Positions 13,748 through 60,437 of a stretch of DNA of 64,000 bases are shown piece by piece. Location of the stretch: the NCBI GenBank assembly GCA_038744685.1, contig JBCDMB010000015.1, positions 1 to 64,000 of the forward strand, given 5' to 3'. The stretch's first letter is position 1. Each line of letters begins with the position of its first letter. This DNA comes from Verrucomicrobiota bacterium (lineage in GTDB: Bacteria > Verrucomicrobiota > Verrucomicrobiia > Opitutales > Puniceicoccaceae). Below the pieces are notes generated by a model, which saw only the letters and a list, made by a program, of their open reading frames with translations, had not been told where the DNA came from and ran no database searches. The position numbers and the translations under genes were made by a program.

Positions 13748-14040
13748 GCTGGAGGCCGGCTCAGAGGGATATCGGAGCGGCTGCTTCAGCTGCCGAAAAA
13801 CGGGGAGGTTTGGAATTGGATTGCCCTCCCCTAGAGATCATCCCCAAGACAAAAGAGAATCGGCGACTGAAGTCGCCGCTCCCCTGTTCTACATGCCCGA
13901 ATCCTCGGGCTAGGATATGGATCGGTCGCGAAGACCAATGACCTGCAAAGGCTGACGGATACTCATGACGCCGAAGTCATCCGCCTCCGCGGCGGATGCT
14001 CCTCTATCTTTGTTAGGGAAGCTTATCCTAGCTCCATTTA
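13748..14040. repeat. Intergenic REP cluster
   Basis: This 293-bp gap between mutM and nspC has no gene. It carries a REP-like imperfect palindrome at 13774-13794 (GGAGCGGCTGCTTCAGCTGCC pattern, split as GGAGCGGC-TGCTTCA-GCTGCC) and a second one at 13862-13882 (GGCGACTGAAGTCGCC then GCTCC) that is identical to the REPs flanking the transposase gene at 59756-60373. Further hairpins are GCCCGA-atcc-TCGGGC at 13895-13910 and a TCCGCC/GGCGGA hairpin followed by GCTCC near 13980-14003. The 12-mer GAGGGATATCGG at 13764-13775 recurs inside the MITE at 17558-17569. Confidence 0.65.
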
Positions 14041-16991: not shown

Positions 16992-17414
16992 TCAGCGTTG
17001 GTCAAAAATCATCCTGACGGCGCGACTTTCTTCACCCCACGGAGCAATATTCGTCATCTGAAGAACCAGCGAACCATCAGGACGCTCAGATAGCTTGATT
17101 CTCCATCCCCACTTCGCGTTTTCATCCTCACCATATTCGTACTGAGCGGTGAATACGCCCCACGCTTCAGGGATACTGATGCAAGGCACTGCCTCTTTTT
17201 GGTGCCAGCCGTCCACCCAGGTAACCCCATCACTCTCGAAAGTAAAACGTCCCTCGACGACCTCTCCCTTGTAAAACCAGGAATAAAGGATGGAGTCGTC
17301 TTTGATGGAAATCTCACACTCGTAGTCTTCACCGGTATTCCCAAGTGGATCCAACCACAACTCGCCCTTACCTTTCCACCGGTTTCCGTCCATTTTAGAT
17401 AGCCAACGATCCAT
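16992..17414 (-). CDS. Hypothetical beta-strand-rich protein
   Basis: 140 aa, not recognised. No signal peptide. The sequence alternates aromatic and polar residues with many Trp (DRWLSKMDGNRWKGKGELWLDPLG; WHQKEAVPCISIPEAWG), suggesting an eight-stranded or lipocalin-like beta barrel, as in proteins that measure or bind small molecules. The start ATG at 17414 is clear. It is separated by 118 bp from the cupin gene and by a MITE from the cation exchanger. Confidence 0.55.
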   Translation of the reverse strand: MDRWLSKMDGNRWKGKGELWLDPLGNTGEDYECEISIKDDSILYSWFYKGEVVEGRFTFESDGVTWVDGWHQKEAVPCISIPEAWGVFTAQYEYGEDENAKWGWRIKLSERPDGSLVLQMTNIAPWGEESRAVRMIFDQR

Positions 17415-17861
17415 ATGACCCCAATAGCAAACAGCTGCTCAATGTCGACCCCGATAAATGAAACTGTCCGGAAAAACGCCGGTCGATAAATACCCGTTTT
17501 TGCCGATTGTCCGAGTAAAATCGAGAAGGTGGGGTTTCTACGGGTGTAATTAAAAGCGAGGGATATCGGGCCAATGGTACTGATGCGGACTCAAGTCCGC
17601 GCTCCTCAAGACCATCACGATGGAGCTCGGACTTGAGTCCGCACCAGTGGAGTAGTGTGTTTTCCATACTACCCCGTGGGTTTAATTACACCCGGTTTCT
17701 ACTCAGTAGCGAGATAAAGCCCTCCGCAGGAAAGGAACTCGGGATTTGGCCAATTACTTTCGATTTGATTCTGAGGAACGAGAAATTCTCGAATCTGGAG
17801 CTAGCCTATCGAATCGCTTGCCATTAGCGGATCGCTTCGGAACGATTAGCGGTTCCGCCAA
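17415..17861. other. Intergenic region with MITE
   Basis: 447 bp without a supported gene. The central part is the MITE at 17542-17693; the rest (17415-17532 and 17703-17861) shows no clear gene, and the last 30 bp before the cation exchanger start contain GGATCGC and GAACGATTAGCGG but no strong Shine-Dalgarno. Confidence 0.5.
17542..17693. mobile_element. MITE (152 bp) with 13-bp terminal inverted repeats and 9-bp target duplication
   Basis: The ends are GGGTGTAATTAAA (17542-17554) and its exact inverted copy TTTAATTACACCC (17681-17693). The flanks GGTTTCTAC at 17533-17541 and 17694-17702 are identical and directly repeated, which is what a transposase leaves on insertion. The element has no coding capacity. 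Its centre is a long hairpin made of two inverted REP-like units (GCGGACTCAAGTCCGC then GCTCC, and GGAGC then CGGACTTGAGTCCGC, 17585-17642). Confidence 0.85.
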
Positions 17862-18914
17862 ATGACCAAAACAGTTGCACTCATCGACATGACCGGCTTC
17901 CCCGGTCTGGTTCTCGCCCTGATTATCGTCGTCGGTTTGTGCTTTTTGATGGTGGGAGGTGATTGGCTCTGCCGTGGCGCAGCGTCTCTGGCAATCCGCC
18001 TCGAGGTGCCACCTGTGGTCGTTGGTCTGACGGTCGTATCGATTGCCACATCCACGCCAGAGCTGTTTACGGCACTAGTGGGAGTCGCGAGCGACCAACC
18101 AGGCCTTGCCATTGGGAACGTCATTGGAAGCAATGCTGCCAACATGGGACTTATTCTCGGAGTCGCTGCTCTGATTACGCCCGTTACCGTTCACTCCCGA
18201 CTCATTCGGTGGGAAGTGCCTATACTTTTGGGTGTGACCGCTCTTTTCGGTCTCCTCTGTTACGTTGCAACAGGAATCGGGCGTTTGGATGGGTCTCTCC
18301 TGCTCATCCTCACATTCGCCTATCTCGTCTTCATTGTTTTGACCTCGAGAAATTCCCGTATCGGTCCCGAGGTGGAAGAGGAACTTCCCTCCCCGCTGGG
18401 AAACATCTTCGTTTGTTTCCTGTTCCTGGGAGGGGGCACCCTTCTCCTCTGGCTCGGAGCCGATCTCCTGGTTGATGCCTCCGTTGAAGCTGCGACCAGA
18501 ATGGGCGTCAGCGAGACATTGATCGGCATCACAATCATAGCAATCGGAACGAGTCTTCCCGAACTTGGAGCCACGGTCGCAGCAGCGATCAGACGCCAGA
18601 GCGGGATTATCGTAGGCAATATTATCGGTTCGAATCTTTTCAACATTCTCCTGATCTGCGGAGTAGTCGGTGTCGCGTTACCATTTCCAGTAGACTCAGG
18701 CCTTATTCAGCTCGAAATCCCGATGGTATTTGCCTTCACCTGCGTCTTCGCTTGGTTCATCTTCACTGAACGAACCGTCTCTCGCAAGGAGGGTGGTCTC
18801 CTTCTTGCTCTCTATGCGGCATTCATTCTTGTCACCAGTCTCTCACAAACCGGCAGCTTCAGCATCGGTCCGCCCGACAACGAAGCTTCAACTGAAATTG
18901 TCCTGACCGAATGA
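17862..18914 (+). CDS. Calcium/sodium:cation antiporter (CaCA, YrbG-like)
   Basis: 350 aa with ten predicted helices in two inverted halves. The two alpha-repeats are VVGLTVVSIATSTPELFTALVG (first half) and IGITIIAIGTSLPELGATVAAAI (second half), each with the TSxPEL ion-binding motif. Two central GNVIGSNAANMGLILG and GNIIGSNLFNILLICG segments follow the repeats. Typical of inner-membrane Na+/Ca2+ exchangers, probably lowering cytoplasmic Ca2+. The stop overlaps the start of the S55-like gene (ATGA), so the three downstream genes are probably one operon. Confidence 0.93.
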   Translation: MTKTVALIDMTGFPGLVLALIIVVGLCFLMVGGDWLCRGAASLAIRLEVPPVVVGLTVVSIATSTPELFTALVGVASDQPGLAIGNVIGSNAANMGLILGVAALITPVTVHSRLIRWEVPILLGVTALFGLLCYVATGIGRLDGSLLLILTFAYLVFIVLTSRNSRIGPEVEEELPSPLGNIFVCFLFLGGGTLLLWLGADLLVDASVEAATRMGVSETLIGITIIAIGTSLPELGATVAAAIRRQSGIIVGNIIGSNLFNILLICGVVGVALPFPVDSGLIQLEIPMVFAFTCVFAWFIFTERTVSRKEGGLLLALYAAFILVTSLSQTGSFSIGPPDNEASTEIVLTE

Positions 18915-59612: not shown

Positions 59613-59670
59613 GGCGACTGAAGTCGCCGCTCCTCTAGGAAGTCGACCTCAGGAGCGGCTGCTCTTGACC
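59613..59670. repeat. REP pair upstream of the transposase gene
   Basis: GGCGACTGAAGTCGCC then GCTCC at 59613-59633, followed on the other strand by an AGGAGCGGCTGCTCTTGACC-like REP at 59651-59670. The first is identical to 13862-13882 and 60417-60437. Confidence 0.8.
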
Positions 59671-60389: not shown

Positions 60390-60437
60390 GGAGGGGCTGC
60401 TTCAGCTGCCCACTCCGGCGACTGAAGTCGCCGCTCC
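60390..60437. repeat. REP pair downstream of the transposase gene
   Basis: 60390-60410 is GGAGGGGCTGCTTCAGCTGCC-like (one change from 13774-13794) and 60417-60437 is GGCGACTGAAGTCGCC followed by GCTCC, identical to the copies at 13862 and 59613. The two are spaced by 6 nt. Confidence 0.8.

Follow-up and report, generated by a model that had tools for sequence, protein, structure and literature searches.

Nezha, RUP, NEMIS/Correia and MITEAba12 are short, gene-less, multicopy elements with inverted ends and target duplications, whose parent insertion sequences (IS) were inferred from similarity of the ends. A REPIN is a single hairpin of two REP units in inverted order with a short spacer between them, and the palindromes also occur alone (PMC3116915); a passage in another paper still calls the spreading of REPs poorly understood (PMC8266576). 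The 152-bp element described here shares the features of the first group but differs from it in its probable ISKra4-type parent and in its REP-pair core. It has the REP arrangement of REPINs, but enclosed by the ends of a DDE-type transposon and apparently moved with a 9-bp duplication, with nothing pointing to RAYT movement of the whole. With ISKra4-family IS (p-MULT 4) it shares the 9-bp duplication, the conserved GGG tip and, in two elements from the same order, the end GGGTGYRAYT with an inner CGCGGGG, yet those IS are ~1.4–1.7 kb long and carry a transposase gene, whereas our element has none and has REP units as its interior. MITEs as such are a known kind; in the open-access papers searched (incomplete coverage, with ISfinder outside it) we found no description of an ISKra4 MITE, nor of an ISKra4 partner combined with swapped, REP-filled middles. 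The less ordinary parts are the exchange of interiors, a loop that occurs inverted, and the REP-like cassettes that one family (family C) has in its arms. Very probably, judging from the comparisons below, an ISKra4-type transposase (DDE, Mutator-like) acts or acted in trans on the MITE family to which the element belongs, and this family is built around a head-to-head REP pair. ISKra4-family transposases would thereby gain a MITE family in Verrucomicrobiota whose end sequence can be tested, and a DDE-type MITE would be linked to REP elements.

In the window (the whole 64-kb stretch of DNA analysed), the element is flanked by divergent reading frames, at 16992–17414 on the minus strand, without a Pfam match and of unknown product, and at 17862–18914 on the plus strand, a calcium/sodium antiporter gene. 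In the sister species another neighbour lies upstream of the antiporter gene, at the place of the empty-site comparison. Direct reading of the letters bore out what an earlier note on this DNA had reported of the length, the exact 13-bp inverted ends (GGGTGTAATTAAA and TTTAATTACACCC), which leave a middle of 126 bp, and the exact 9-bp duplication GGTTTCTAC on both flanks (Table 1). The element has no coding capacity: the sole frame of at least 80 codons listed across it has 90 codons, lies on the minus strand and extends into the flanking DNA. At up to two mismatches we found four occurrences of the end motif in the window, where 0.6 would be expected, three of the four at the element, and the element strand folds at −45 kcal/mol, compared to −18.3 ± 2.9 for shuffles (z −9.1). 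The same note had also tied the element to a REP cluster through the 12-mer GAGGGATATCGG, which is present exactly at 13764–13775 and 17558–17569, but this we attribute to chance: by our estimate, a 152-bp sequence compared with 64 kb on both strands should give about one exact 12-mer match. Because other family A copies (see below) mostly read GCGGGGTATCGG at this position, GAGGGATATCGG is a private state of the window copy.

Table 1. Features of the element and of stand-alone REP units in the window.
Feature	Position	Strand	Basis or remarks
Left target-site duplication, GGTTTCTAC	17533–17541		Exact direct repeat of 17694–17702; 9-bp duplication signal in 41 copies
Left terminal inverted repeat, GGGTGTAATTAAA	17542–17554	+	Exact inverse of 17681–17693; matches ISKra4-family IS boundaries
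Left subterminal block, AGCGAGGGATA in the window copy, AGTGCGGGGTA in the family A consensus	17555–17565	+	Family alignment
First REP-like unit, GCGGACTCAAGTCCGCGCTCC: palindrome GCGGACTCAAGTCCGC plus tag GCTCC	17585–17605		Direct reading
Hairpin loop	17606–17621		Alignment of 11 copies
Central segment, CTCAAGACCATCACGATGGAG, inverted in six of the 11 family A copies	~17604–17624		11-copy alignment
Second REP-like unit, GGAGCTCGGACTTGAGTCCGC, inverted relative to the first	17622–17642		Direct reading and fold
Small side hairpin, GTAGTGTGTTTTCCATACTAC, adjoining the right end	17652–17672		Fold; kept across the family A alignment
Right subterminal block, TACCCCGTGG (CCACGGGGTA read from the right end)	17670–17679	−	Common to family B left ends
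Right terminal inverted repeat, TTTAATTACACCC	17681–17693	−	Exact inverse of the left end
Right target-site duplication, GGTTTCTAC	17694–17702		Direct reading
Whole element, family A MITE, 152 bp	17542–17693	+	Direct reading, reading frames, genome copies
Stand-alone REP units, GGCGACTGAAGTCGCC with GCTCC tag	13862–13877, 59613–59628, 60417–60432		

Searches of the host genome (a 3.64-Mb draft in 56 contigs), through which the copies were collected, revealed 11 complete and ~6 partial copies of this element, our family A, at ~17 loci; searching with the element itself returned ten nearly full-length matches, and the eleventh complete copy is L023. The other complete copies diverge by 5–27% from the window copy, which is the best preserved, with both ends and duplication exact. 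A genome search for the ends, as the earlier note had proposed, led in the host to a family B of ~11 copies, whose ends are the same and whose body, GGGAGGGACCACCTCCGCGTGGTCC...GGACGGGACAGAGCCCGTCCC, differs. Scanning a collection of 85,000 genomes for GGGTGYAATTNNANNCRCGGGGTA yielded two contigs, both from the Verrucomicrobia MAG GSL.Bin9, in which family C gave 50 hits from more than 40 copies, typically of 126 bp and with yet another middle. The outer ends are conserved in families A, B and C, and the REP-like middles are different. Among the 52 genomes searched (host and relatives), matches to the element were confined to the host and one sister species, the latter with a 28-bp REP match only, and none was found in the viral contigs and plasmids searched. 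One family A copy (L022, host contig C32, from 28911) lacks the loop and one REP arm and keeps both ends.

By crude gene calls based on simple open frames, seven of the 11 complete family A copies (L001–L010 and L023) are flanked by divergent genes, no copy has convergent neighbours, and many are ~75–130 bp from the left start codon; families B and C showed no clear placement between divergent genes. A preference of family A for promoter regions is possible. For some ISKra4 elements, promoter regions have been reported as insertion sites.

We compared the left and right flanks of 41 copies from two genomes at lengths from 4 to 12 bp, with flanks of different copies as the control. Identity was 0.637 (64%) at 9 bp against 0.256 (26%) for the mismatched pairs, weak at 8 bp (0.375; control, 0.247) and 10 bp (0.337; control, 0.244), and near null at 4–7, 11 and 12 bp. 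Copy ends in this test were set by motif matching, and L008, L116, L117, L123 and L124 were mis-bounded, an error that should only weaken the 9-bp signal. Exact 9/9 duplications were seen in the window copy, L006 (CCGCTTGAG) and L097 (CCGGAAAAA), among others, and an 8-bp duplication fits better in L002, L010 and L053. Since the flanks agree at 9 bp, the copies of these families can be read as insertions, and for the window element genuine insertion, claimed before on the duplication and ends, is supported at the sequence level by the exact duplication, the many copies at unrelated sites and the 9-bp signal over 41 copies. The unrelated flanks of the copies also exclude the competing possibility of one long palindrome conserved in the flanks of relatives.

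The core does consist of two inverted REP-like units, as first noticed, and the palindrome of the first unit was found outside MITEs too, in the host genome and in the sister species. The GCGGACTNNAGTCCGC palindrome, in most cases headed by GGAGC, was counted 14 times in G001, a sister species free of the MITE. In the host it turned up at three places that lack intact MITE ends, once adjoining an IS end; reversed-pattern controls gave zero in both the host genome and G001. The window has a related REP unit, GGAGCGGCGACTTCAGTCGCC, again headed by GGAGC, on its own at 13862, 59613 and 60417, and parts of the family B body likewise occur by themselves at several sites. Because REP units and family B body pieces occur alone, the REP-like units are independent of the MITE. 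Between the REP arms, a 21-bp segment is inverted in some of the family A copies (Table 1) with the outer sequence otherwise similar, most clearly so in L005 compared to L006, and this inversion may have arisen by recombination or template switching between the arms.

Such a core would also be expected if the element were a RAYT-mobilised REP array of the REPIN or BIME kind, its outer inverted repeats being further REP arms, a reading that we consider very unlikely. The inverted REP pair with its spacer is indeed that of REPINs (PMC3116915), and a Y1 transposase gene (Y1_Tnp; L075:1673–2686, host contig C25) that matches the RAYT model weakly, below its cut-off, directly adjoins a truncated ISKra4 gene. 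The mobile unit here is bounded by ISKra4-type ends rather than being the REP pair itself. RAYT/IS200-type movement is not known to make a target duplication, and the 9-bp duplication across 41 copies does not fit it; nor does the conservation of the outer ends over three families whose REP-like middles vary.

The GGG tip and the 9-bp duplication, which we take to be ISKra4 features, prompted tests of the ends against that family, whose genes had a match in 10 of 177 genomes of the order and 62 of 384 of the class. Two elements, L077 and L085, both from a genome of the same order as the host (G011), begin GGGTGCAAATAAAAGTGCGGGG, identical at 20 of 22 bases to the family A consensus end GGGTGTAATTAAAAGTGCGGGG; upstream of it they have no obvious similarity to each other and, because their similarity stops exactly there, GGGTGCAAATAAAAGTGCGGGG marks the IS boundary. 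The left subterminal block of the MITE is also found 3′ of the tip in both, each of which has an in-frame stop and runs off its contig end, leaving the right end unseen. When the MITE end motifs were scored against 35 ISKra4 loci, the family A consensus gave best scores of 21, 20, 18 and 18 of 24, and the best scores sit at the mapped boundaries of L077 (21/24), L085 (20/24) and L190; the controls reached at most 16. The window copy's own end reached 18/24 and 17/24 at L077 and L085, with the same control maximum. L190 is a complete ISKra4-family IS with ends GGGTGYGATTARAAGTGGGTGA and a 9/9 duplication (TTGGAAATG), and exact 9-bp duplications are present in several complete ISKra4 elements of the class, L178–L183 and L186 included; for p-MULT elements, duplications of 8 or 9 bp have been described (PMC3942029).

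Further elements carry parts of this end: L079 (G005) has GGGTGCAATTGAAGTAACGGGG 50 bp from its gene, and the outer tip is common to L080, L148 and the host remnant L074. The IS ends of these last three have TGTCA in the inner half where the MITE has CGGGGTA, and they are probably relatives, not the mobilising enzyme. In a tree of 36 transposases, L074, L077, L079, L080, L085, L086, L148, L186, L190, L193 and L195 form one clade with 100/99 support, and mapped elements of the remaining clades end in GGGYGCATCTCA or GGGTGYRGGACAAA, for example. In several clade members a stop adjoins a stretch of A residues, a feature also of the two-frame ISMich2 group (PMC3942029). Short, without coding capacity and dispersed in many copies, with inverted ends common to ISKra4-family IS and, like them, a 9-bp duplication, the element is thus a MITE, the class to which the earlier note had assigned it.

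Duplications of 8–9 bp are made by several IS families, and the element might instead be a MITE of another family that duplicates 9 bp (IS1, ISLre2, IS256 or IS4-type), with a convergent likeness to ISKra4. IS256-family transposases do occur in the host, the sister species and GSL.Bin9, but the IS256 loci examined, the only ones covered among these families, lacked matching ends with duplications, and the best end matches fall on mapped ISKra4 boundaries, above the control, and track one transposase clade, so that such a parent is very unlikely. An IS256-family parent was tried as a candidate in its own right and rejected, as its ends fail to match. A static structure, be it a terminator, small RNA or attenuator, flanked by direct repeats through chance would account for the strong fold and intergenic position but is scarcely credible given the many copies at unrelated sites with a common 9-bp duplication signal, and no Rfam family reached its cut-off. 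A known RNA family was likewise rejected, the single Rfam hit lying far below the cut-off.

We therefore return to the ISKra4-type reading, in which a gene-less MITE would be moved, now or formerly, in trans by an ISKra4-family DDE transposase (prokaryotic Mutator-like p-MULT 4), presumably one of the clade defined above. The transposase is predicted to bind the 22–24-bp ends GGGTGYAATTNNANNCRCGGGGTA and to make a 9-bp staggered cut at insertion that would leave the 9-bp duplication. The middle would be passenger DNA: two REP palindromes native to the genome, placed head to head, which fold into a long hairpin and may have entered the MITE as a ready-made unit. The host genome has one ISKra4-type gene (L074, C25:716–1507), truncated at its N-terminus and with GGGTGTGATTTTG ~20 bp past the end of the reading frame; the 56-contig draft yielded no intact transposase gene bounded by the exact ends of family A, although an intact IS could sit in an assembly gap. 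Because the sole ISKra4-type transposase in the host assembly is truncated, present-day movement there is doubtful.

Interiors are also variable within family C. A 47–50-bp REP-like hairpin cassette is present in the left arm only of L201 and L204, in the right arm only of L112, L122, L126, L203 and L205, in both arms of L202 and L208, and in neither arm of others. Its site is always CCTTT^AGG, with one orientation relative to the site and no target duplication, a pattern resembling what would be expected of insertion by an HUH (RAYT/IS200-type) enzyme. Since the loops of the left and right cassettes differ, at least two cassette events are likely. In 132 kb of GSL.Bin9 loci we saw no such cassette outside MITEs, which lowers the case for free REP insertion, and either loss from a longer ancestor or gain from a mobile REP may explain the pattern. 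That MITEs of the ISKra4 type carry REP sequences about, with at least three unrelated REP-like interiors between the same ends, is a tentative and rather unlikely proposal; were it true, the MITE copies would be natural filled and empty sites in which REP insertion could be read. More generally, should REP units enter MITEs whole, the copies are ready material of this kind for study; if they do not, this is a well-documented but ordinary MITE.

Two family A copies (L014:1558 and L016:1552) are themselves interrupted, within the GGACTTG^ palindrome, by an IS with ends TAGGATAAACCTCATGAGTCAG and GATTTAATCACAGTTG, a C-terminal fragment of which presumably resembles IS110. The IS110 family is known to enter REPs. 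What appears to be the other end of this IS lies beside half palindromes at two contig starts (L027:112–127 and L168:112–127).
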